From the NCBI RefSeq assembly GCF_003841485.1, contig NZ_REFY01000005.1, positions 186,001 to 250,000 on the forward strand: a stretch of 64,000 nt of DNA, given 5' to 3'. The notes below the pieces were generated by a model that was not told where the DNA came from, searched no databases, and saw only the letters and a program-made list of their open reading frames with translations. This document shows positions 1,985 through 34,516 of this stretch, piece by piece (the first letter of the stretch is position 1; every line of letters starts with the position of its first letter). This DNA comes from Natrarchaeobius halalkaliphilus. GTDB taxonomy: Archaea; Halobacteriota; Halobacteria; Halobacteriales; Natrialbaceae. Position numbers and translations under genes: made by a program.

Positions 1985-3358
1985 TCAATCGAGGTATTCT
2001 GTTAGCGTCATTCGTTCGAGTGCATCCTCGGGGATGTCTAACACCGGTGGATACTGTTCGTCAACGGGTTTGGTCGCATCTATTATAATTTTTGATGTTG
2101 CGACCTCGCCGCGAACGCTCGGATCGAGCGTGTTACCCTTGACACCGTTGATGATGTCGATATCTTCGTCGGCCCGGACGCGGGTCGACTGCGCCCAGAG
2201 GACCTCTTCTTCGTCGAACGCATCGACGTCCTCGTCGACGACGACGACGTGCTTGATGAAATCCGAACTCGCGAGCGCCTGTAATGCGGCGTGTTTCGCT
2301 TCGCCTTCGGTCGTCTGCTCGAGGCTTACGTAACAGCGAAATCGGCCACAGCCCGAACTCGGTAAGTGAACCTGCTCGACGCTCGGAACGCGACCCTGGA
2401 TGTCGTTGTAGATTCCCCCCTCTTTGGGAACGCCACCGAGTGTTGCGACGTCTTTGTGGCCGACGAACACGTGCTGAAAAATCGGATCGGACCGACAGAC
2501 GACGTTCTTGACCTCGACGACGGGTTTGAGGCGCTGTGGTCCGTAGTAACCCGGGAACTCCCCGAACGGAGCTTCGGTTTCTCGAACCTCCGGAAGGACC
2601 TCCGCCTCGACGATGACCTCGGCGTCGGCCGGAACGAGGAACTCGTCGCCCCAGGTCTTCGAGGGCGTCAACCGGAGCGGGTCTCCGAACATGCCGCCGA
2701 TTACGTCGTACTCGTCGACTTCGAACCCCGCGAGCGTCAGCGCGCCGAGATAGTAGCTCGGGTGATGTCCGATCGTAACCGCCATTCGGGTCCGTTCGCC
2801 GCGATCCTCGTTGGTCTTGTAAATACGGAAATTATGCCGCGGGGACATGTGAATCCCCATCTCCTCACCCCCCTTGACCATGTTGCGGAGGAACGCGACG
2901 TTGTACACCCCCGATTCGGGGTCTTTCATCGTCGGGGTCATATTGATGTACGGCGCGGGGTCGAGGCGGTGATGGCGAACGACCGGAAGGTGCGTCAGGT
3001 CCGGTACGGCGTCTTCCATGACCGGCGCATCGTCGGTATCGACCACGACGGGCTCCTGTCGGTTCGTCTCGCGCCGACCGTACTCGAGGCTCGTCTCCAT
3101 GCGCCACTCGTCGGTCGACAGGTCGAGCGCCTGTGCGATCCGACGACGGTCCGCAAACACGTTACTGATAAGCCGGAAGTCGGTCTCCCGCCCCTCGATA
3201 TCTGTCGGGTTCTCGAAGAGAACGGCCGGATACCGATCTTCGTTCTCGAGGTTCTGGAGGATCGCCGTGACGTCGAATTCAGCGGGGTTGACCGACTTCG
3301 AGACGCGCTCCAGTTGCGAATCCGGAAGCGTCTCGAGATACGACCGGAGGTCTCTCAT
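1985..3358 (-). CDS. UbiD-family prenyl-FMN-dependent decarboxylase
   Basis: Non-oxidative decarboxylase or carboxylase of the UbiD/Fdc family, which uses prenylated FMN made by UbiX (a ubiX gene lies at 26614). The 457-residue length fits. Residues 262-273 contain the family motif EAPFGEFPGYYG, so Glu262 and Glu267 correspond to the catalytic and cofactor-binding glutamate pair of Fdc1 (Glu277/Glu282). Arg158 in the VAFLRNM stretch fits the conserved cofactor arginine. It overlaps the upstream ATPase stop by 4 bases (ATGA), and the small zinc ribbon and two permeases follow. Being inside a transporter operon, it probably acts on the imported acid; the acid itself cannot be named. Confidence 0.9.
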   Translation of the reverse strand: MRDLRSYLETLPDSQLERVSKSVNPAEFDVTAILQNLENEDRYPAVLFENPTDIEGRETDFRLISNVFADRRRIAQALDLSTDEWRMETSLEYGRRETNRQEPVVVDTDDAPVMEDAVPDLTHLPVVRHHRLDPAPYINMTPTMKDPESGVYNVAFLRNMVKGGEEMGIHMSPRHNFRIYKTNEDRGERTRMAVTIGHHPSYYLGALTLAGFEVDEYDVIGGMFGDPLRLTPSKTWGDEFLVPADAEVIVEAEVLPEVRETEAPFGEFPGYYGPQRLKPVVEVKNVVCRSDPIFQHVFVGHKDVATLGGVPKEGGIYNDIQGRVPSVEQVHLPSSGCGRFRCYVSLEQTTEGEAKHAALQALASSDFIKHVVVVDEDVDAFDEEEVLWAQSTRVRADEDIDIINGVKGNTLDPSVRGEVATSKIIIDATKPVDEQYPPVLDIPEDALERMTLTEYLD

Positions 3359-5865: not shown

Positions 5866-7584
5866 TTATGCAGACGGGTCGTCCACGTGGACGTCGAGGA
5901 TCGCCGGTCGACCTTCGTCCATCGCCGCGACCGCCTCGTCGAGTGCGGCGATCAGGGCGTCCTCGTCGTCGACGGTCGCCGTGTAGGCGTCGACGACGGT
6001 GGCAGCCGCGGGAAGGTCGGGCGCGGGATCGAACGTCCGTTCGCGCAGACCCTCCGTGGCAACCGATCCGTCCGGATACTGGCTCAACGTTGCCGACTGG
6101 ACCGCGCGCCAGCCGCCGTTGTTGTAGATGACGGTGAGCGTCGGCGCGTTCATCGACGCCGAGAGCCACGCCGTCACCGTGGGATGGGAAAACAGATACG
6201 AGCCGTCACCGACCAGCGAAAGGACCCTCGAGTCAGGTTGGGCCAGTTTCGCACCGACCGCGGCACTGCCGGCCCATCCGAGTCCAGCGCCACCTTTCCA
6301 AAAGTGCCCACCCTCGGTCGTGACGTCGAGATGTTCGAGGATCGCCGTCTGTGAGGTGACCGCGTCTTCGATGGCGATGGTGTCCGATTCGACGACGTGG
6401 TTCAGGGCGTCCGAGAGAACTTCCGGCGTGAGCAGCCCTTCGTCACGATGGCTCGAGAGCGTCTCGTTAGCACGGTCTCTGCGGTTGCTGGCCGTCGTTT
6501 CCCACGCCTCCTGTCCGCTCGAAGGCGCGTCGACGTGTTCCGTCAATGCGGCCATCGTCGCGGCCGAGTCCGCCTCGAGTCGGAGGTCGACTCTGAAGTT
6601 CCAGGACGGATACTGTGCCTTCGTCGGGTCCGAATCGAACTGGATCACGGGGACGTCCGCGGGCGGATGGCCGTTCGCGGGAATCCACGGGATGTCGACC
6701 GCCGCCAGCAGGATCAGGTCGGCAGTCTCGAAGACGTCGTTCGGCGTGAATCCGAGATGAAGGGGATGATCGCGCGGGAAACAGATCCGCGTCGGTGCGT
6801 GCTCGACGACGCCAGCGCCGGTGGCCTCAGCGAACTCGACGAGTGCGTCGGGGTCGGCGTTCTGACTCGTGATAACGACCGGGTTCGAGGCGTCCTCGAG
6901 ACGTCCGCCGAGTTCCTCGAGCATCTCGTCGGTCGGCCGCGAGGGCTGCGATCGTTCGATCGTTCGTGCGGGTTGATCGGGGGCGTCGAAGCGCGCCTCG
7001 AGCGCTTCTCGCGTTGCCGTGAGGTACACCGGACCGCTGGGATCGGCCGTCGCTCGCTCGAGACCGCGCGCAACGATCGAATCCGGATCCGCTGGCGGTT
7101 TGTACTCTCCCGTCCAGCGACAGTACTCGCGGACGATCCCCGGCTGGTCGAAGACGTCCTGTTGATAGTGGACGACGTGTTCTCTCGATCCGAGATACCC
7201 CGAATCGGTCACCGGAGCGAGCCCGGAGATAACGAAAACGGGAACGTTCGCGCGGTGAGCGTTGTGCATCGCTCCACCCAGGTTTTGCGTGCCGACGTCG
7301 ACGTGAACGAGCACCGCCTGTGGCTCACCACTCACGGCCGCGTAGCCGTGTGCGGCGCTCATCGCGACGTACTCGTGGGGACAGAGGACGATCTCCGGAA
7401 TCGACGTCTCTTCCCCCCGAGCGCGGATTCGACTGATCGCTTCGATCAACGGGGTGTGATCCGTCCCGAGGTTCGAAAACAGATATTCGACGCCGTGGTC
7501 GGCAAGCGACTCGAGCAGCGCCTCGCCGCTGGTGACGAGGTCGGTGTTCTCGATATCCTCCGCTGGCAGGTCAGGAAGCTCCAT
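5866..7584 (-). CDS. Thiamine-diphosphate-dependent decarboxylase/acetolactate synthase-like enzyme
   Basis: Member of the pyruvate oxidase/acetolactate synthase/benzoylformate decarboxylase superfamily. The N-terminal domain has the ThDP-activating Glu71 (LCPHEYVAM). The C-terminal domain has the cofactor motif GDG at about 459-461, closed by IYNNGGW. I use the ATG at 7584 rather than the GTG at 7602, because an AT-rich TATA-like ACATTATGC near 7606-7614 gives leaderless spacing to 7584. A 2-keto-acid decarboxylase working with the convergent aldehyde dehydrogenase is plausible. Sequence alone does not separate decarboxylase from carboligase. Confidence 0.88.
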   Translation of the reverse strand: MELPDLPAEDIENTDLVTSGEALLESLADHGVEYLFSNLGTDHTPLIEAISRIRARGEETSIPEIVLCPHEYVAMSAAHGYAAVSGEPQAVLVHVDVGTQNLGGAMHNAHRANVPVFVISGLAPVTDSGYLGSREHVVHYQQDVFDQPGIVREYCRWTGEYKPPADPDSIVARGLERATADPSGPVYLTATREALEARFDAPDQPARTIERSQPSRPTDEMLEELGGRLEDASNPVVITSQNADPDALVEFAEATGAGVVEHAPTRICFPRDHPLHLGFTPNDVFETADLILLAAVDIPWIPANGHPPADVPVIQFDSDPTKAQYPSWNFRVDLRLEADSAATMAALTEHVDAPSSGQEAWETTASNRRDRANETLSSHRDEGLLTPEVLSDALNHVVESDTIAIEDAVTSQTAILEHLDVTTEGGHFWKGGAGLGWAGSAAVGAKLAQPDSRVLSLVGDGSYLFSHPTVTAWLSASMNAPTLTVIYNNGGWRAVQSATLSQYPDGSVATEGLRERTFDPAPDLPAAATVVDAYTATVDDEDALIAALDEAVAAMDEGRPAILDVHVDDPSA

Positions 7585-7826
7585 ATTCGACACTCGAAGC
7601 ACTCATGCATAATGTTTTGTGTATCGTGAACGGACGATCCATCCCATCCCGGATACACTTACTTAGGGTGTGTTACGCCCGACGACGAGTGTTCCCGTTC
7701 GCACGCTGTCCGAGATCCTGTCAATCAGTGGTCTGATAATCGAAAGACGGCTAAAACCGTTCTAGAGCCGTCCGAGACGTCCCGACAATACTTTGAGCAT
7801 AAAAAAGTCCTGATACATGTCGGTAG

Positions 7827-7859: not shown

Positions 7860-8990
7860 ATGTCCGTTATCGACTCAGAGCGATTCCCGCTCACCGACGA
7901 AATGGAGGAGGCGTTCGTCGTGGACGTCGACTTCCACTTCAGGGCTCCAGTCGACCGACTGATGCCCTACATGGATAGTGCGGTAGTGAAACGAAACCTC
8001 GACATCACCGGATATCCGCCGACGTCGTGTTACTGGTTCCCCGGCTACTCGACGCCCCGAGGTGCCGGCGGACTCGAGGCTCACGGCGAACTCGAGACCG
8101 GCGAGGACATCGTCGAAGTGATGGAAGCCCTCGGAATCGACATGCCCATCCTGACACCGGGGTACAACAAGCTGCCCGACTCCCAGAACGTCGTGATGAA
8201 AAACGAGATTTCGCGGGCCTATAACGACTATCTCGTCGACGACGTGCTTCCGACGCACGAAAACATCAAGGCGGTTGCTCTGATGCAACAGTGGGAACCG
8301 GAGACGGCCGTCGAGGAAATCAAACGCGTGGGTGACGAAGAAGATATCGTCGGCATGTACGGCTTCTTCGGACACTACGATCTGCTGGGTCAGCCGAAGT
8401 ACGACCAGGTGTTCGAGGAACTCGTCGCCCGAGACCTGCCACTCGCACTTCACGGCGGCGGCACCGCCAACTGGCCCCAGAAAGATCTGATCGGAAACTC
8501 GCTTCGGACGTGGTCCGAGGCGTACGGACTCGTCCACCCGTGTCGCGCCATGATGATGGCTGGAAACATGATCATGACCGGCGTTTTCGATAAGTACCCG
8601 GAACTGCAGGTCGTCATGATCGAAGGCGGCGTCAACTGGGTCCCGTTCGTCTCGGAGCGTCTGGACGAGATGTACAACGACCACCCGGAGGATATCCAGA
8701 TGACCGAACGGATGCACCGGATGGGACAGGAGTACCTCGACAAACAGCCCAGTGAGTATCTAGAGGAGAACTTCTCGTTCTCGAGTCAGCCGATGAACAT
8801 TCCGAACAAGACGTCGAACTTCGAGGCCATGCTCGACATGACCAACGCGTCGAATTCGTTGATGTTCGCGACCGACTTCCCACATTACACGGTCGAACTT
8901 CACAACTGGGTCCTCGAGTCGCCGGCCATCGACGACGAGCTCGCAGAGCGAATCCTCCACGAGAACGCTGAGAGTGTCTTCAGGATATGA
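7860..8990 (+). CDS. Amidohydrolase-2/ACMSD-fold metal enzyme (module 1)
   Basis: TIM-barrel metal enzyme of the amidohydrolase-related family that includes ACMSD and gamma-resorcylate decarboxylases and LigJ/LigW-type enzymes. Visible ligand candidates are the D-x-D-F-H strand at residues 22-26, His198 (ALHGGG), His226, Glu255 and the C-terminal ATDFPH with Asp339 and His342. The canonical HxH is D-x-H here, as in many members. The stop overlaps the start of a Rieske ferredoxin gene by 4 bases (ATGA). A hydrolase or decarboxylase needs no electrons, so the coupling suggests a redox role; see findings. Substrate unknown. Confidence 0.85.
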   Translation: MSVIDSERFPLTDEMEEAFVVDVDFHFRAPVDRLMPYMDSAVVKRNLDITGYPPTSCYWFPGYSTPRGAGGLEAHGELETGEDIVEVMEALGIDMPILTPGYNKLPDSQNVVMKNEISRAYNDYLVDDVLPTHENIKAVALMQQWEPETAVEEIKRVGDEEDIVGMYGFFGHYDLLGQPKYDQVFEELVARDLPLALHGGGTANWPQKDLIGNSLRTWSEAYGLVHPCRAMMMAGNMIMTGVFDKYPELQVVMIEGGVNWVPFVSERLDEMYNDHPEDIQMTERMHRMGQEYLDKQPSEYLEENFSFSSQPMNIPNKTSNFEAMLDMTNASNSLMFATDFPHYTVELHNWVLESPAIDDELAERILHENAESVFRI

Positions 8991-9316
8991 CGGAACACGT
9001 TGTCGCTGCTGCTGACGAGATCCCTCAGGGGAAAGGGAAAGCCGTCGAAGTCGATGGGTTGCCGATCGCCGTCTTCAACGTCGAAGGGGAGTACTACGCG
9101 ATCTCCAACCGATGCGTGCACATGGGTGGTCCGCTCGGACAGGGTATCCTTCACTCTGATCTCCCGACCGTCGATTCCGAGCGGACGTCGGTTCACTGCC
9201 CGTGGCACTACTGGGAGTTCGACCTCGAGACCGGTCGAAGCGTCGTAAACGAAAAGACCGGCCTCCGAACGTTCGACGTCGCCGTCGAGGACGAGCAAGT
9301 CGTTATCGACCTGTGA
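8987..9316 (+). CDS. Stand-alone Rieske [2Fe-2S] ferredoxin (module 1)
   Basis: A 109-residue Rieske protein with cluster boxes CVHMGGPL (Cys43, His45) and CPWHYWEF (Cys71, His74), with no transmembrane or oxygenase domain. It resembles the small ferredoxins that feed Rieske oxygenases or NirD-like subunits. It is coupled by an ATGA overlap to the amidohydrolase-fold gene upstream and by a GTGA overlap to the MFS gene downstream. It presumably passes single electrons to a partner oxidoreductase, with the coupled upstream enzyme the first candidate. Confidence 0.93.
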   Translation: MTEHVVAAADEIPQGKGKAVEVDGLPIAVFNVEGEYYAISNRCVHMGGPLGQGILHSDLPTVDSERTSVHCPWHYWEFDLETGRSVVNEKTGLRTFDVAVEDEQVVIDL

Positions 9317-10536
9317 GCGAGCACGCGAGCGTACGGCCGAACGACGGTTCGGACGGACGGGCGGGCGTCGTCGTGGCGATGTGGCTGTTGACCACGATCG
9401 GATACGCGTACATCATCGTTCCGACGAGCGTCCTCCCCGTCATCCAGGAGTCGTTGCTGATCGGCCCGCTCGCCGCGAGCGTTATTCTGAGCATCACGCT
9501 GGCTGCACAGTCGATCTCGAACGTTCCGGTCGGTGCATTACTGGACCGAATGGATAATCTCCACGTGCTCGGCTGGGCGACCGTCGGTCTCGTTATCGCC
9601 GGTCTCTGGGGGTGGTACGCCGCAGCTTCGGGCGATTACTGGTCACTCCTTGGCTCCCGCGGTCTCGGTGGTGTCGTGACGGTCGTCATGTGGACCGTCG
9701 GCGTCAACGTGACGACCGGGCTCTACCAGTTCGATCGGCGCGCCACGGCGATCGGGTTCTTCACCACCAGTGCACCCGCCGGGTTCGCCCTCGGACAGTT
9801 CACGGGACCCGTCGTGGCCAACAGCTTCGGCTGGGAGAGTACGTTCGCGTTCTACAGCATCGTCGCCGGCGCGACGTTCGGCTTCGTCGTGATCGCGAGC
9901 GCCCGCTGCTCGAGTCCGACGACGCCGGAAACACCGGTTCCGACGCTGGACGAGGTTCGTGCGGTACTCGGTAACGACAGCGTCTGGCTGATCGCTATCC
10001 TCGCCGGGATCTCGTTTTCGGCGTTTTTCGTCCTCACCAACTGGATGCCGAGCTATCTCGTCGACGAATACGGGCTGTCGCTGATTCACAGCGGCTTCTT
10101 CGTGGCGCTTTTTCCCGCGGTCGGCATCGCGTCACGCTGGGGTGGTGGATTTATCTCCGACGCCTGGTTTGCCGGTCGTCGACGTCCCGTCGTCTTCTGG
10201 TCGTTCCTGATTTCGACGCCGACGTTCGTGGTCCTCGCAGTCGTCAGGGAGCCGTTTACGACGGTGTTGACGCTTTGCCTGGCAGGTATCTCGATTCAGC
10301 TCGGGATCGGCGTCTTCTTCGCGTATGCACGTGAAGTCGCTGACGCGTCCGTCTCCGCGACGGCGGTGTCGATAACGAGTGCCGTTGCCGTGGCCGGTGC
10401 GACGGTCGGTCCGGTGATCACCGGCGCGCTGTTCGAACTGTCCGGCACCTATGCGAGCGTCTTCGTGTACGTCATCTTGCTCTCGGCAGCCGGCGTGGCC
10501 CTCTCGTATAAGGCACCGGAACCTAGCGTCGCTTGA
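9313..10536 (+). CDS. MFS transporter
   Basis: Major facilitator with about twelve hydrophobic segments. The frame is open from 9202, but the earlier part is the shadow of the Rieske gene. The GTG at 9313 overlapping the Rieske stop (GTGA) is the natural start and gives 407 residues. The inter-helix motif between TM2 and TM3 is seen as GALLDRMDN. Its position in the operon points to uptake or efflux of the substrate of the amidohydrolase-Rieske pair. Confidence 0.88.
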   Translation: MSEHASVRPNDGSDGRAGVVVAMWLLTTIGYAYIIVPTSVLPVIQESLLIGPLAASVILSITLAAQSISNVPVGALLDRMDNLHVLGWATVGLVIAGLWGWYAAASGDYWSLLGSRGLGGVVTVVMWTVGVNVTTGLYQFDRRATAIGFFTTSAPAGFALGQFTGPVVANSFGWESTFAFYSIVAGATFGFVVIASARCSSPTTPETPVPTLDEVRAVLGNDSVWLIAILAGISFSAFFVLTNWMPSYLVDEYGLSLIHSGFFVALFPAVGIASRWGGGFISDAWFAGRRRPVVFWSFLISTPTFVVLAVVREPFTTVLTLCLAGISIQLGIGVFFAYAREVADASVSATAVSITSAVAVAGATVGPVITGALFELSGTYASVFVYVILLSAAGVALSYKAPEPSVA

Positions 10537-10548
10537 GACCGGCTGCTG

Positions 10549-10634
10549 TGATACGGACTGCTGTAACTCATTTCCGGCGCAACCGCGACCCGTCCTTCGG
10601 TTGCGCCGGTAAACCGTTACAGCAGACCGTATGA
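10549..10634. repeat. Long palindromic intergenic repeat, copy 1
   Basis: Outer arms at 10549-10567 and 10616-10634 (GATACGGACTGCTGTAAC against its near complement) enclose perfect inner arms CCGGCGCAACC at 10574-10584 and GGTTGCGCCGG at 10599-10609. The whole could fold into an interrupted hairpin. Homologous copies are at 24652-24736 and 16915-16996, with a degenerate one at 20628-20705. Confidence 0.8.
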
Positions 10635-10753
10635 GTTGTTTTTCAGTGAGACCGCGACCGTTCGGCGGCTGGGCCAGCAAATCGGAACAACGGACAACTC
10701 CCCATTCGAGAGGTAGTCAGACGATATAAGGGCCTCCAGCGAAACGCACTCGT

Positions 10754-10915
10754 ATGGAAGAACCCGGTGACCCGTTTCACTGTCCTCACTGTGACGAAGC
10801 TCACACCGTCAAAGAAGACGAAGAGGGATTTTCCGCCACCGTTGAGTTCAGGAAGCTGTTCGTCGAGTGCCCGACGTACGACGGCGTCATCGTCTGGGCA
10901 ACGGTGTCAGAGTGA
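10754..10915 (+). CDS. 53-residue CxxC small protein
   Basis: Short acidic reading frame (starts MEEPGDPFHCPHCDEAH) with a CPHC pair at residues 10-13 and a third cysteine at about residue 39, resembling the abundant haloarchaeal small zinc-finger proteins. A TATA-like GATATAAG at 10724-10731 lies 23-30 bp upstream of its ATG, which supports expression. It stands alone between the repeat and the SBP gene. Function unknown. Confidence 0.6.
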   Translation: MEEPGDPFHCPHCDEAHTVKEDEEGFSATVEFRKLFVECPTYDGVIVWATVSE

Positions 10916-11088
10916 ACGCAAGCGAGGGACCGGCCGAAGGATCACTCGTGTCAGTACAGAGTGACTCGAGGGAAGCCACGTTCCCGATCGGGGCGGAATG
11001 AACCGTTCGATCGTCCGATTGTCGCAGTTGATATTCACTCCCACACATAAGAAAGACTTAAGTGTTCATCCTACACCATTGTTTGTGT

Positions 11089-12168
11089 ATGCCTCGTAAG
11101 AGCAGTAGACGGAACGTGCTGACAGCTGTCGGCGCAGGATTGACGGTCGGGATCGCCGGATGTGCTGGCGACGACAACGGCAACGGCAACGGCAATGGAA
11201 CTGGGAACGGGAACGGCAACGGAACTGGAAACGGGAACGGCAACGGCAACGGTGACGACGACGTGCTGCCGGATACGCTCCGTATCGGCCACCCGGGACC
11301 GACGCGGCCGACGTACGCGGCACCACCGTACTCGCACTTCCTCGACGAGATGGAAGCGCGCGGCGTGACGGTCGAGCCGGTAACGTTCGACGGCTTCGGG
11401 CCGATGATCGCGGGAATGATCTCCGAGGACGTCGAGATCGGCTACGTGACGCCGCCGTCGCTCGCGAACGCGATCGCGGAAGGGTTCCCGGTCAGCTCGT
11501 TCATGGAGCTCTCCCAGGCGTTCAGCCAGCAAGTCTGTACCGCACCCGGTATCGACAGCTGGGACGAGATCGAAGGCGAGACGTTCATCCTCCACTCACC
11601 GAGTTCGTTCTCCGCCATGGTCGGCCGTAGCGCCGTCGAGGCCAACCTGGGCGACCCCGAAGCCGTCGAGTACCAGTACATCGCCGGAACGCCGAACCGG
11701 ATCGCCGCGATCGAGGCCGGTGAAGGGGTCGCGACGACCGCCTTCCTCGCAGGCGTTCTCGACGCCGAAGAAGAGGGTATCGTCCAGCACTTCTCGAACC
11801 CGAACGACGACTTCGACCACATGACCCTTGCGACCTGGGCGACGCTCGACGAAAACCTCGATCAGAACGAGGCGATGCACCAGGAGATCGTCGACGTGAT
11901 GCTCGAGTCCTACGAGGACATGTACGACCGAGACATCGCAGAGCTCGTCGAATATATCCAGACCGCGCCGACCGACTTCCCGGATTACGGCGAAGAAGTC
12001 TGGAGCGAAACGCTCGAGACGGCGCGAGAGGACGAGATGTGGAACACCGATCTCAGTGAGCACATCACCGACGAGAAGTTCCAGACGTCACTCGAACTCG
12101 CAGACCGTGCCGACCTGCTCGAGGAGATGCCGGACGTCGACGACCTCGTCGATCGGCGCTTCCTGTAG
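11089..12168 (+). CDS. Tat-exported lipoprotein substrate-binding protein (first paralogue)
   Basis: Extracellular solute-binding protein of the NMT1/TauA-like type. The ATG at 11089 gives a signal with SRRNVLTAV (twin arginine) and a lipobox ending GIAGC. A low-complexity Gly/Asn/Thr linker of about 25 residues, typical of haloarchaeal lipoproteins, follows. The mature part begins LRIGHPGP. It is clearly paralogous to the protein at 27320 (shared DTLRIG, the SLxNAIxEGFP motif and the GTxNRxxALEAGE motif). It is probably a binding subunit for the TauBC-like importer at 180-4149, because no other permease of this class is in the window. Confidence 0.9.
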   Translation: MPRKSSRRNVLTAVGAGLTVGIAGCAGDDNGNGNGNGTGNGNGNGTGNGNGNGNGDDDVLPDTLRIGHPGPTRPTYAAPPYSHFLDEMEARGVTVEPVTFDGFGPMIAGMISEDVEIGYVTPPSLANAIAEGFPVSSFMELSQAFSQQVCTAPGIDSWDEIEGETFILHSPSSFSAMVGRSAVEANLGDPEAVEYQYIAGTPNRIAAIEAGEGVATTAFLAGVLDAEEEGIVQHFSNPNDDFDHMTLATWATLDENLDQNEAMHQEIVDVMLESYEDMYDRDIAELVEYIQTAPTDFPDYGEEVWSETLETAREDEMWNTDLSEHITDEKFQTSLELADRADLLEEMPDVDDLVDRRFL

Positions 12169-12258
12169 TCAGCCTTTTTCGGTCAGTTTCGCGGCAACAT
12201 CTTCAAAAGAGTCCGCATTAATAATCAAATATAAGTCGTCGGAGCGTCGTTCAACGGT

Positions 12259-13317
12259 ATGGACGGGTACGAAGTCGTCGATGCGGACGCACATTACTTC
12301 GAAACGCTCGATCACATCGCACCGTATCTCGACGAGCCCTGGAAGACGCGACTCTCACAGAAGATCGACAGCCCGCAGTCGTCTATCTACCCGACGAGTA
12401 GTGGCGATCGAAACGTCTTCGGACGGATCGCTCGAGACGAACTGTCGCTTTCGGACATGACTCCCGAGGACATTCCGATGATCATGGATCACCTCGACGT
12501 CGACAAGACGATCATCCTCTCACAGAAGATGCTCTCGTTCGGTCGAATCAAAGGTGACGACGAACGGCCGGTCATCCTCGCAAACGGCTACGTCGACTAC
12601 ATGCTCGACAAGGTCGTCGATCCGGACGAGGGCGTCTACACGATGATTCCCGCGCCGTACCAGGATCCCCAGGCTGCAGCGGATCTGATCCACCGGGTTG
12701 GCGACGAAGACGGTATCTGTGGCGTCTGTCTCGTGACGCCCGGTGCGGAACCGCCGATGGGCAATCGGCGGTACGACGTCATCTACGAAGCAGCCCAGAA
12801 GGAGGGGCTCGCGCTGAACTTCCACGCCGGCGGTGGCGGGCTGGACGAGTTCCACATCAAGGGGTACGAGAAGTTCATCGAGACGCACACCCTCGGATTC
12901 CTCATGAACAACATGGCTCAGCTCACGAGCGTCGTCGTTCAGGGCGTTCCCGAGAAGTTCCCCGACCTCGAGATCGCGTTCCAGGAGTCGGGTATCTTCT
13001 GGGTACCGCTCATGATGCGGCGACTCGACGCCGAGTACCTCAAACGCCCGTCCGAGGCACCGCTGCTCGAGAAGCGACCGAGCGAGTACATCAAGGAGTT
13101 CTACTACGGCATTCAGCCACTCGAAGTTCCGGAGAACGAAGCGGAACTCGAGGGCGTCATCGAGACGATCGGCGGCGCGAGTCAGCTCATGTACGCCTCC
13201 GATTATCCCCACTGGGATTACGATCTGCCGGAGGTCATCTCGGAGCGACCGTTCCTCTCCGACGACGAGAAAGCGCGCATTCTGAGCGGAACGGCCAACG
13301 AGGTGTTCGGCCTGTGA
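12259..13317 (+). CDS. Amidohydrolase-2/ACMSD-fold metal enzyme (module 2)
   Basis: Second amidohydrolase-fold protein (352 residues). Candidate metal ligands are D-A-D-A-H at 8-12, His189 (NFHAGGG), His210, Glu243 and Asp315/His318 (YASDYPH). It keeps the general architecture of module 1 but is clearly diverged. A TATA-like AAATATAAG lies about 30 bp before the ATG. The stop overlaps the GTG of a Rieske ferredoxin gene (GTGA), the same arrangement as at 8987. Possible activities include decarboxylase, hydratase or metal-dependent oxygenase; the sequence does not decide. Confidence 0.85.
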   Translation: MDGYEVVDADAHYFETLDHIAPYLDEPWKTRLSQKIDSPQSSIYPTSSGDRNVFGRIARDELSLSDMTPEDIPMIMDHLDVDKTIILSQKMLSFGRIKGDDERPVILANGYVDYMLDKVVDPDEGVYTMIPAPYQDPQAAADLIHRVGDEDGICGVCLVTPGAEPPMGNRRYDVIYEAAQKEGLALNFHAGGGGLDEFHIKGYEKFIETHTLGFLMNNMAQLTSVVVQGVPEKFPDLEIAFQESGIFWVPLMMRRLDAEYLKRPSEAPLLEKRPSEYIKEFYYGIQPLEVPENEAELEGVIETIGGASQLMYASDYPHWDYDLPEVISERPFLSDDEKARILSGTANEVFGL

Positions 13318-13679
13318 GCGAGCGAGTCCGTGCTGGAACGGTAGGCGATCTCGGCCCCGGTGAGCGAACGGTCGTGACGGTAGACGACGAGCCCGTCGGC
13401 GTCCTCAACGTCGAGGGCGACTACTACGCGGTCCAGAACACCTGCGAACACATGGGTGGCCCCGTCTGTTCGGGGCGCGTGCAAGGAAAACTGGTTGCGG
13501 AGTTTACCGAGCCGGGTCAGCGTCCGGAAGAGGACTTCTCCGACGACAAAACCATCGCCTGTCCGTGGCACGGCTGGGAGTACGAACTCGAGACCGGCGA
13601 CCACATCGGTGACGACCGGATCTCTCTCGAAACGTACGACGTGACCGTCGAGGACGGGGTCGTCTACGTCGAATCGTAG
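13314..13679 (+). CDS. Stand-alone Rieske [2Fe-2S] ferredoxin (module 2)
   Basis: A 121-residue Rieske protein starting at a GTG that overlaps the amidohydrolase stop. Boxes are CEHMGGP (Cys44, His46) and CPWHGWEY (Cys83, His86), with an insertion of about 12 residues between the boxes relative to the module 1 ferredoxin. It has no membrane anchor and no catalytic domain. It is expected to be the electron donor for the protein coupled to it or for another oxygenase in the island. Confidence 0.92.
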   Translation: MSERVRAGTVGDLGPGERTVVTVDDEPVGVLNVEGDYYAVQNTCEHMGGPVCSGRVQGKLVAEFTEPGQRPEEDFSDDKTIACPWHGWEYELETGDHIGDDRISLETYDVTVEDGVVYVES

Positions 13680-17729: not shown

Positions 17730-17856
17730 GATGGTATACGCTCACTCCTCGGTAATAAATCGACCGAGTGTACGGAGTCTCCCCGCATATACCGGGTAGC
17801 TCGTGGATCAACCCCATCACAAATTCTTTATTGACGCGGCGCATGTCTTCGTGTGT

Positions 17857-18573
17857 ATGTCTGACACGCAGTCACAGGAAGCCGTCACGTTTCTCAACGA
17901 GACGACGGCGGAGTTCCGAAACGAGATGGGGGAACTGGTCCAGAAGTACTACTCTGACGAGTACTTCGACGAGATCGGCGGTCCGGAGGCGGTTGTCCAC
18001 CAGGTCGTCCCCGATCTGGCGTGGCGTGAGTGGTTCAACGGGGCGATGATCCCCGCGCGACAGATGCACTACGTCTTCGAGCAGGGGGATCCGTACTACC
18101 GCGACCGGGACATCATCGTCGGACTGTCAGAGCAGATCCGAGACGAGGTCAAACACGCGAACACGCTCGCGAACATCTCGCGGCGTTTCGGCGTCGACAT
18201 GGATTTCGCACAGTGGGACCAGTGGCTGGACGAGGACGTCGCCGAGGCGCTCGTCGCCCAGCACCAGGCTGCGATGGCCCCCGAATACGAGGGGCCGCAG
18301 TACTCGGCGGTCGGAATGCAGTGTTCCACCGAGATCATCGCAGTCCACACGCTTCACCGGATGGCCAACTACATGGAATCCTCGTATCCGAACGCCGCAG
18401 ACCAGATGCGTGAGATCGCGAACGACGAGGACGACCACGTCCACGTCGGTCGGATGATCGTCGAGCGGTTCTCGACGCCGGAGGACATCCCCGTGCTGCG
18501 GGAGATTACCGAGACCAAGCGCGAACGGATCGAAAACATGTTGCGAACGCGCTACGAGAGGACGATGGAATGA
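17857..18573 (+). CDS. Ferritin-like diiron protein with two ExxH motifs, probable single-subunit oxygenase
   Basis: A 238-residue helical acidic protein. It has Glu58, E97-V-K-H100, Glu159 and E191-D-D-H194, the spacing expected for the four-helix carboxylate-bridged diiron site of the ferritin/R2/PaaA class. The ATG at 17857 follows a TATA-like TTCTTTATT at 29 bp. The gene overlaps an 85-residue acidic protein by 4 bases and is followed by an acyl-AMP ligase; a ferredoxin + GNAT cassette lies beyond. This parallels the PaaABC group at 30679-34695. It is therefore a candidate O2-activating hydroxylase or epoxidase on a CoA thioester; that is inference. Confidence 0.7.
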   Translation: MSDTQSQEAVTFLNETTAEFRNEMGELVQKYYSDEYFDEIGGPEAVVHQVVPDLAWREWFNGAMIPARQMHYVFEQGDPYYRDRDIIVGLSEQIRDEVKHANTLANISRRFGVDMDFAQWDQWLDEDVAEALVAQHQAAMAPEYEGPQYSAVGMQCSTEIIAVHTLHRMANYMESSYPNAADQMREIANDEDDHVHVGRMIVERFSTPEDIPVLREITETKRERIENMLRTRYERTME

Positions 18574-32350: not shown

Positions 32351-32526
32351 CGTTCGAGGATTACGCCGCGCTGTGATGAACCTTGCGACCGAGAGCAGGC
32401 ACGGAACGCGGACGGCCACGCCGGGGGTCGGACGTTTCCCGAGGTCGGTCGGGTCCGAATCGCCTGTGGAGTATCAATCGTTGTGGATGGTACAGGGGGC
32501 TTGCATTCTTAGCAAGAACTATAGTG

Positions 32527-33453
32527 ATGCAGCCACGAGTATATGATGATATGGGCGTCGTAGAACGTCAGTTAGAGGAGCTTAAATCGGAGTGTAAAGC
32601 CGACGATGATGTCGTCGTAAGCCGTGTCTCCCGTGGCGAGACGATCGAGACGATCGAGGAGATGAGTCCGAACTACCTCGAGACGCTGGTCGAGTTCATG
32701 CTCACGCAACACGACACGGAGATCATGAGCGCGTGTGCGTACCACCCCGCAGCCACGCAGAAAGCGCCGACGCTGGACGCGAAGATCTCCGGCAGCGCCG
32801 TCGTTCAGGACGAGGTCGGCCACGCGAACCTGGGATATCGCGTCCTCTCGGACCTCGGGTTCGACAAGGAGGCGCTCATGTACGAGCGCGATCCCAAGGA
32901 GTGGCGGAACATGCGCGTGTTCGACGAGCCGTTCGAGAACTTCGCCGAGTTCGCCTGCGGTGTCGGGTTTTACGACCGGGCCGGCACGATCCAGATCGGT
33001 GACATCGAGGAGAACTGTTCGTTCGGTCCGTGGCGACGCTACGAGCGAAAGGTCGTCGCTGAAGAAGGGTTCCACAAACGACTCGGAGACATGTGGTTCA
33101 AGCGGCTCGGAAGCGGCACGCCCGAACAGCAACAGGCGCTTCAGGACGCCGTCGACAAGATGTTCCCCAAGGCGATCGCGTTCCTCGGTCACCCCGAGAA
33201 CGAAGGGAAGGCGATCCAGCAGATTCGCGAGTACAGCCTCCGGAAGGGGACGAACCACGAACACCGCCAGGAGTGGCTCAGGCAGGTCTACGAGACGTTC
33301 GATTCACTCGAGGTCGATATTCCGATCGGCTACGACGAGAGCGAAGACGAGTACGACGTCACGTTCGACATGGACTGGAAGGGCGTCTACAGCGAGTGGA
33401 AAGAATCGCCGGGTCCGGTTGACCACATCCAGACCGTCCAGGGTGTCGCATGA
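32527..33453 (+). CDS. paaA: Phenylacetyl-CoA 1,2-epoxidase catalytic subunit PaaA
   Basis: 308-residue diiron subunit that epoxidises the ring of phenylacetyl-CoA or a related aryl-CoA. The diiron motifs are E96-V-G-H99 (VQDEVGHANLG) and E180-G-F-H183 (EEGFHKRLG), with further Glu at about 65 and 174. The ATG at 32527 (MQPRVYDDMG) is chosen; the longer frame is not conserved in type. It is followed with 4-base overlaps by paaB and paaC. Confidence 0.93.
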   Translation: MQPRVYDDMGVVERQLEELKSECKADDDVVVSRVSRGETIETIEEMSPNYLETLVEFMLTQHDTEIMSACAYHPAATQKAPTLDAKISGSAVVQDEVGHANLGYRVLSDLGFDKEALMYERDPKEWRNMRVFDEPFENFAEFACGVGFYDRAGTIQIGDIEENCSFGPWRRYERKVVAEEGFHKRLGDMWFKRLGSGTPEQQQALQDAVDKMFPKAIAFLGHPENEGKAIQQIREYSLRKGTNHEHRQEWLRQVYETFDSLEVDIPIGYDESEDEYDVTFDMDWKGVYSEWKESPGPVDHIQTVQGVA

Positions 33454-33722
33454 AAGGGAAACGCACGTACGAGGTGCTCGCGCGAATCAACGCCGGCGAA
33501 CCGCTCCAGTCGATCGGGAGCGTCGACGCCTCGAGCGACGAGTTCGCAAAGCAGTACGCAGAGATGTTCTACGACGAAGAAGACTGGGAGGTCCTCTTCG
33601 TCGTCGACCGCAAGGACATCCTCAAGGTTAGCGGAGATCCGGGTCACGAGTACAAGGACGTCGGTGGGGAGATCGACGATGGAGCCGTCGGCTTCGTCAA
33701 ACGAGCGGGTGGTACCCAATGA
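33450..33722 (+). CDS. paaB: Phenylacetyl-CoA epoxidase subunit PaaB
   Basis: 90-residue non-catalytic bridge subunit of the epoxidase. Recognised by the start TYEVLARINAGEPLQSIGSV and the YAEMFYDEEDWEVLFVV stretch. It overlaps paaA and paaC by 4 bases each (ATGA), so the three subunits are co-translated. Confidence 0.9.
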   Translation: MKGKRTYEVLARINAGEPLQSIGSVDASSDEFAKQYAEMFYDEEDWEVLFVVDRKDILKVSGDPGHEYKDVGGEIDDGAVGFVKRAGGTQ

Positions 33723-34516
33723 GTACTGACTCAGCAGTCTCGACCGAAGCGCGCGACGCCGCATACGACCTCGCAGTGGTCCTCGCCGATACGGAGTTCA
33801 TCAGCGCCCACCGGTACTCGGAATGGGGGATGCTCGGCGCACCCAGCATCGAAGAGGACATCGCGCTGTCGTCAGTGATCCAAGACGAGCTCGGTCACGG
33901 ACGTGCCGCCTACAAGGCGGCGGCCGATCTTGGTGAGACGTCAGTCGACGATCTCCTCTACGAGCGGTCGGTCGACGAGTGGCGGAGCCCGACGGTCCTC
34001 GATAGCCAGTTGGACAACTGGGCCGAGATCGTGGCTTCGCTCGCCGTGCTCGATTACGCGACCGTTCTCGTCTACGAGAACTTACAGAACAGCTCGGTCG
34101 ACGAGCTTTCGGGCATTGCAGAGAAGGTTCTCCAGGAAGAATCACAGCACATCCAGCACGGTCACGTCTGGCTGGGTGTCTTCGCTGACGAGAGCGAAGG
34201 CGAGTATCCCAAAGAAGAGCTACAGGCAGCGCTCGATTCGTTCGTTCCACAGGTCGCCCAGTGGCTCGGACGCAACGACGGCAATGACGTCCTCCTCGAG
34301 GCAGGCGTGTTCGAGCGGTCGAACGAACAAATGCGCGAGGAGTTCCTCTCGGACATCTCGTCCCTGCTCGAGTCCCACGGGTACGACGTTCCAGACGTCG
34401 ACCTCGAATGGGACGAGTGGGACGATCAGAGCCGACGACCATCACCACCGGAGTCTACGTTCGAAGAGACCGTCGACGAAGTGACGGGACGTCAACACAG
34501 GTACCTCGCAGGATAA
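33719..34516 (+). CDS. paaC: Phenylacetyl-CoA epoxidase subunit PaaC
   Basis: 265-residue ferritin-like structural subunit that pairs with PaaA. It contains E57-L-G-H60 and E141-S-Q-H144, so both ExxH motifs of the helical fold are present. The C terminus is strongly acidic with DLEWDEWDD. Its last base is the first base of the zinc-ribbon gene start (taATG), so the four genes form one operon. Confidence 0.9.
   Translation: MSTDSAVSTEARDAAYDLAVVLADTEFISAHRYSEWGMLGAPSIEEDIALSSVIQDELGHGRAAYKAAADLGETSVDDLLYERSVDEWRSPTVLDSQLDNWAEIVASLAVLDYATVLVYENLQNSSVDELSGIAEKVLQEESQHIQHGHVWLGVFADESEGEYPKEELQAALDSFVPQVAQWLGRNDGNDVLLEAGVFERSNEQMREEFLSDISSLLESHGYDVPDVDLEWDEWDDQSRRPSPPESTFEETVDEVTGRQHRYLAG

Follow-up and report, generated by a model that had tools for sequence, protein, structure and literature searches.

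Two gene pairs of the haloarchaeon Natrarchaeobius halalkaliphilus, each composed of a gene of the PF04909 amidohydrolase family and of a small Rieske ferredoxin gene, very probably encode, in either case, two components of a multicomponent monooxygenase with an amidohydrolase fold (ARO), namely its terminal oxygenase and an electron donor dedicated to it. The second oxygenase, AMH2, is a new member of this known class, and the first one, AMH1, is apparently a conserved haloarchaeal ARO variant undescribed so far, in which a threonine occupies the position of a second-sphere aspartate. In the mechanism that we suggest on the basis of homology, the PF04909 barrel would hold a two-metal centre (Fe2 or Mn/Fe) bound by Asp-x-His, His, Glu and Asp-x-x-His, and the Rieske ferredoxin, probably co-translated with the oxygenase, would reduce it one electron at a time. 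The reduced centre would then, as has been suggested for AibH1H2, activate O2 for the hydroxylation of a small catabolic substrate, while a reductase encoded elsewhere would recharge the Rieske protein.

As enzymes that use O2, AROs have been recognised only recently and have received little study; what determines, at the residue level, whether they bind one metal or two, and Fe or Mn, is a question still to be answered (PMC10811679). The relatives of AMH1, hereafter clade A, carry a natural and strongly conserved substitution at the very position where AibH2 was already mutated (D342A). Haloarchaea offer many ready-made oxygenase/Rieske pairs, which allow direct tests of the metal question as well as of what the Rieske donor does. 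The plasmid records that were examined give these genes no more than the annotation 'amidohydrolase'.

Gene organisation and coupling of the two families

The window, i.e. the whole stretch of 64,000 nucleotides that was analysed, spans positions 186001-250000 of its contig (385 kb; the assembly totals 3.5 Mb); the features discussed are listed in Table 1. The sequence-only reading had reported that a PF04909 gene and a small Rieske gene overlap by 4 bp twice (7860-9316 and 12259-13679), and this was confirmed by the ORFs and by Pfam. The overlap is ATGA in the AMH1 pair and GTGA in the AMH2 pair; the Amidohydro_2 (PF04909) E-values are 1e-21 for AMH1 and 6e-26 for AMH2, and those of Rieske (PF00355) are 7e-18 and 1e-15 for the respective partners. 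The cluster motifs are intact in both ferredoxins (CVH...CPWH and CEH...CPWH), and Pfam detected no oxygenase domain in either of them. Biphenyl and naphthalene dioxygenase ferredoxins are among the closest solved relatives of the AMH1 partner.

Table 1. Features of the window, with positions counted from its first nucleotide.
Feature	Positions	Strand	Basis
UbiD-family decarboxylase, same catabolic region as the pairs	1985..3358	-	domain search
ThDP-dependent decarboxylase/lyase family protein, divergent from AMH1	5866..7602	-	domain search
AMH1 (PF04909, 376 aa, clade A, predicted 'Thr-type' ARO)	7860..8990	+	ORF list, Pfam, alignment
Thr344 codon (acg) of AMH1, clade-A-specific second-sphere substitution	8889..8891	+	
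Stand-alone Rieske [2Fe-2S] ferredoxin, 109 aa, AMH1 partner	8987..9316	+	ORF list, Pfam
NMT1/TauT-type ABC substrate-binding protein, just upstream of AMH2	11062..12168	+	Pfam
AMH2 (PF04909, 352 aa, clade B, canonical Asp-type ARO)	12259..13317	+	ORF list, Pfam, alignment
Stand-alone Rieske [2Fe-2S] ferredoxin, 121 aa, AMH2 partner	13314..13679	+	ORF list, Pfam

The coupling of PF04909 and Rieske genes, which the same reading had proposed to survey in other genomes, is far above chance. A Rieske ORF lies directly 3' of every clade A gene (26/26) and of 30 out of 31 genes of clade B, the relatives of AMH2, a set that takes in the third ARO of this same genome; by contrast, only one of 20 control haloarchaeal PF04909 genes is followed by a Rieske gene, and this case is a mere loose motif match. 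One clade B locus (L057) has no Rieske motif downstream. In clade B, the commonest start of the Rieske gene is a -4 overlap. Moreover, the distances between Rieske proteins follow those between oxygenases, with a Mantel r of 0.85 for clade A and 0.94 for clade B (0/999 permutations as high), correlations that are due in part to shared species history. Among the Rieske proteins, the clade A partners group together in a separate clade (SH-aLRT 99), even in genomes carrying both types; from this and from the co-variation, each oxygenase appears to own a cognate Rieske donor.

At the genome level, eight PF04909 matches were found, three of which have a Rieske gene directly behind them, and just eight Rieske matches occur in the whole 3.5 Mb, three of them directly behind the three ARO genes. 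The third ARO is located outside the window (contig positions 148185-149276), is 68% identical to AMH2 and is followed by its Rieske gene at 149273-149635. This third pair (L018/L019, C5:148185-149635) also shows a 4-bp ATGA overlap and belongs to the same catabolic region as AMH1, from which it is separated by about 45 kb on the upstream side.

Metal ligands, structural matches and the second-sphere position

The metal ligands of AibH2 (D25, H27, H211, E265, D337 and H340) were used as the reference set. By homology, the ligands of AMH1 are D24, H26, H198, E255, D339 and H342, present in all clade A sequences, and those of AMH2 are D10, H12, H189, E243, D315 and H318, without variation among the 21 aligned clade B sequences; in fact, all six AibH2 ligands are kept in every clade A and clade B sequence compared. 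The ligand list of the sequence-only reading for AMH1 needed two corrections, as it wrongly included His226, which varies in clade A, and omitted His342, the sixth ligand by homology. The control haloarchaeal PF04909 proteins (n=7) lack at least three of the six ligands, among which the first Asp and the last His are missing in every case. Their pattern has no Asp-x-x-His and mostly a His at the E265 position, and neither AMH1 nor AMH2 fits it; one distant control protein (L100) aligned poorly. AibH1 is mononuclear despite having all six ligand-type residues, thus these residues alone are no proof of two metals.

When searched by sequence against the PDB, both proteins matched AROs best (8SM7, 8SM9, AibH2, SfbO 8SM6 and 8SM8), ahead of decarboxylases. 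Foldseek searches with AlphaFold models gave the same picture, with AROs first for both proteins, ahead of ACMSD/DHBD-type decarboxylases. The AMH2 model (mean pLDDT 86) aligned to 8SM7 and SfbO with TM 0.84-0.85; the AMH1 model, which is of moderate confidence (mean pLDDT 80, with loops 51-73 and 202-221 below 50), aligned to AROs with TM 0.73-0.77.

These data bear on the possibility that we are dealing with two ordinary hydrolases or decarboxylases containing a single Zn or Mn, with the Rieske protein serving another enzyme. Most characterised PF04909 enzymes are indeed mononuclear hydrolases/decarboxylases (PMC10401708), and decarboxylation chemistry is present in the region with UbiD and ThDP decarboxylases. 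However, the ligand set, the best structure matches, the near-universal Rieske pairing and the co-variation speak against this explanation, and the neighbourhood of the pairs in the window shows neither a Rieske oxygenase alpha subunit nor any other electron acceptor. We regard it as highly improbable, and it was rejected on ligands, structure ranking and pairing.

The two proteins differ at the position of AibH2 D342. In AMH2 this is the acid D320, invariant in clade B, whereas AMH1 has no acid here but Thr344, a point missing from the sequence-only reading. The residue is Thr in 30/30 clade A sequences and Asp in all 36 other catalytic-type AROs compared, with no gaps in the alignment next to the flanking ligands. 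Asp342 of AibH2 holds a water molecule at metal site 2, and the D342A mutation lowers the activity while metals still bind (PMC10401708). An acid at this position was stated to be conserved in binuclear members only: it is a direct ligand in PtmU3 (E313), a second-sphere residue in AibH2 (D342), and it is absent from the mononuclear AibH1 (PMC7782822). The six residues used to select 555 AibH2-like proteins do not include D342 (PMC10401708). We did not find any description of a Thr at this position in the ARO literature, in a search limited to open-licence papers.

Since Thr replaces the second-sphere Asp in AMH1, this enzyme probably departs from canonical AROs in metal content or in the chemistry at site 2. 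How far this difference goes can be suggested only tentatively. Clade A could possibly activate O2 without the second-sphere acid, at a mononuclear or a retuned dinuclear centre, in a reaction unlike the known hydroxylations. A related explanation, likewise no more than possible, which departs from our preferred one for AMH1 only, so that the confidences given to the two overlap, is that AMH2 is a normal ARO and clade A is redox-active and Rieske-fed without being a typical dinuclear hydroxylase, having either one metal or two with a different outcome (desaturation, oxidative cleavage). Thr344 is accompanied by other clade-A-specific residues at barrel-strand ends (F25, N103, W145, F170, W205 and W218), which suggest a reshaped pocket, and the series from PtmU3 to AibH1 described above is also in favour of such atypical chemistry. 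On the other hand, all six ligands are kept in clade A, and AibH2 still loads metals when D342 is mutated to Ala.

Clade A proteins, their distribution and the genomic surroundings

The near relatives found are all from haloarchaea, the closest being in Natrarchaeobius chitinivorans (95% for AMH1), in which both pairs are present in the same order. Clade A is well supported in the tree (97/99), which does not settle its branching order with respect to clade B and the bacterial AROs. Among 247 genomes of the phylum and in one public-genome scan, clade A was found in Halobacteria only; the scan used narrow patterns, therefore its absence outside this group is not proven.

AMH1 and AMH2 are close to each other, about 3.3 kb apart in this genome and about 3.1 kb in N. 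chitinivorans, and the acid corresponding to D342 is missing from AMH1 as well as from AibH1. Both observations would agree with an AibH1-like role of AMH1: it would bind a single metal, have no catalytic function and assemble with the catalytic AMH2 into a heterotetramer of the AibH1H2 type. Several lines of evidence, however, make this very improbable. A separate Rieske gene accompanies each clade A gene, in contrast to the single one shared by aibH1 and aibH2. In six near-complete genomes (G026, G048, G087, G088, G151 and G183), clade A occurs without any Asp-type ARO found; the genome of AMH1 itself does hold Asp-type AROs, namely AMH2 and the third ARO. In addition, clade A combines the invariant Thr with an acid retained four residues after the last His, whereas the AibH1-like protein of locus L021 has no such acid, with H and S at the D342 and +4 positions, and in the tree clade A stands apart from the AibH1-like sequence. 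Since clade A has Rieske genes of its own and is present in genomes where no Asp-type ARO was found, the accessory-subunit model was dismissed as a general explanation; for the same reasons, the Thr-type proteins are probably not helper subunits of the AibH1 kind, and we regard them as independent enzymes.

The surroundings of clade A genes are only in part recurrent. An IclR-type regulator is near 15 of 26 clade A loci (L023-L046), a transporter also recurs, and a FAD/Fe-S dehydrogenase and an Asp/Glu-racemase-like protein are found at seven and five loci, respectively. An attempt to deduce the substrate from these neighbours was dropped, as there are recurring genes but no single recurring pathway.

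In the genome of AMH1, the pairs are surrounded by two UbiD decarboxylases, ThDP enzymes, aldehyde dehydrogenases, NMT1-type binding proteins, and PaaA/PaaC-like and catechol-2,3-dioxygenase-like proteins. These catabolic neighbours suggest that aromatic or related acids are degraded in the region, and they are the sole hint at aromatic substrates. The NMT1/TauT-type binding protein upstream of AMH2 is a probable uptake gene of its catabolic region, and the divergent ThDP-dependent protein a possible pathway partner of AMH1. An AibF-like reductase does not adjoin either pair; one FAD_binding_6 reductase was found in the genome, on another contig.

Three further features of the window deserve mention on their own. 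PaaA-like and PaaC-like proteins at 32383-34516, with scores below the curated phenylacetyl-CoA epoxidase cut-offs, are possibly another diiron oxygenase. An orphan of 256 aa at 17803-18573, with no match in Pfam, NCBIfam or PDB, contains two D/E-rich His motifs (DEVKH and DEDDH) and recalls a helical diiron protein. Finally, a short ORF at 16534-16995 matches only the C-terminal end of aldehyde dehydrogenases and is probably a gene remnant.

Comparison with known amidohydrolase-related oxygenases

The sequence-only reading had supposed Rieske-fed oxygenases of the PtmU3 kind, not annotated as such. The first part is supported by the six ligands, the structure matches to AROs, the pairing and the co-variation, but AROs, the pairing argument and haloarchaeal members have already been published (PMC10811679, PMC10401708); the idea was thus right in kind, but not new. 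AibH1H2 was described together with the Rieske protein AibG and the reductase AibF (Hibi et al., PMC7782822). Powell et al. showed a Mn/Fe centre and listed 555 AibH2-like proteins, haloarchaeal ones included, with a 90% co-occurrence with a small Rieske gene (PMC10401708). Liu et al. introduced the name 'amidohydrolase-related dinuclear oxygenases' for the class, discovered further members via the Rieske pairing and showed redox-active diiron centres for four candidates (PMC10811679). The known ARO reactions include aliphatic C-H hydroxylation and N-dealkylation, and the ring attack supposed in the sequence-only reading is at most a possibility. On haloarchaeal Rieske-amidohydrolase systems and on aromatics in Natrarchaeobius, the literature search returned nothing beyond the ARO papers.

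Bacterial loci examined for comparison show other arrangements. An Asp-type ARO and a Rieske gene are found with a hybrid-cluster NAD(P)-dependent oxidoreductase both in Sinorhizobium meliloti (L111:1280-5708), together with a betaine-aldehyde dehydrogenase, and on a Pseudomonas plasmid (L110:733-5703), together with a choline-binding protein, which suggests a choline-like or quaternary-amine substrate for these two loci. On Neorhizobium (L109:2154-4107) and Phaeobacter (L108:2200-4110) plasmids, unlike the haloarchaeal order, the Rieske gene is upstream of the ARO and separated from it by a small hypothetical gene. A ThDP enzyme as a common partner of the Neorhizobium ARO locus and of the region studied here was considered and dropped: the two ThDP proteins are 23% identical, therefore no orthology is claimed.

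Among the characterised systems, the 2-aminoisobutyrate hydroxylase of Rhodococcus wratislaviensis (AibH1H2-AibG-AibF) has, as here, a PF04909 oxygenase gene adjoining a small Rieske gene, and AibH2 has the six ligands in common with AMH2 (28% identity) and AMH1 (24%). It differs in having two PF04909 subunits per Rieske gene and a linked reductase, against one PF04909 protein per Rieske gene and no linked reductase here, and in Asp342, which is Thr in AMH1. SfbO and the candidate AROs 8SM7, 8SM8 and 8SM9 (PMC10811679) likewise combine PF04909 with a neighbouring Rieske gene and are the best sequence and fold matches; they are bacterial, show 21-30% identity to the proteins described here, and have the second-sphere Asp as AMH2 does, in contrast to the Thr of clade A. 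PtmU3 (6OMP), the diiron hydroxylase of the platensimycin pathway, shares the amidohydrolase fold and is related by sequence (E about 4e-8 to 7e-8), but acts on CoA-bound substrates, is more distant from our proteins than the other AROs, and places the metal ligand Glu313 where AMH1 has Thr344. The ACMSD, dihydroxybenzoate and 5-carboxyvanillate decarboxylases belong to the same Pfam family (PF04909) and have the same barrel, but they are non-redox enzymes and rank below AibH2, SfbO and 8SM7-8SM9 in both sequence and fold searches.
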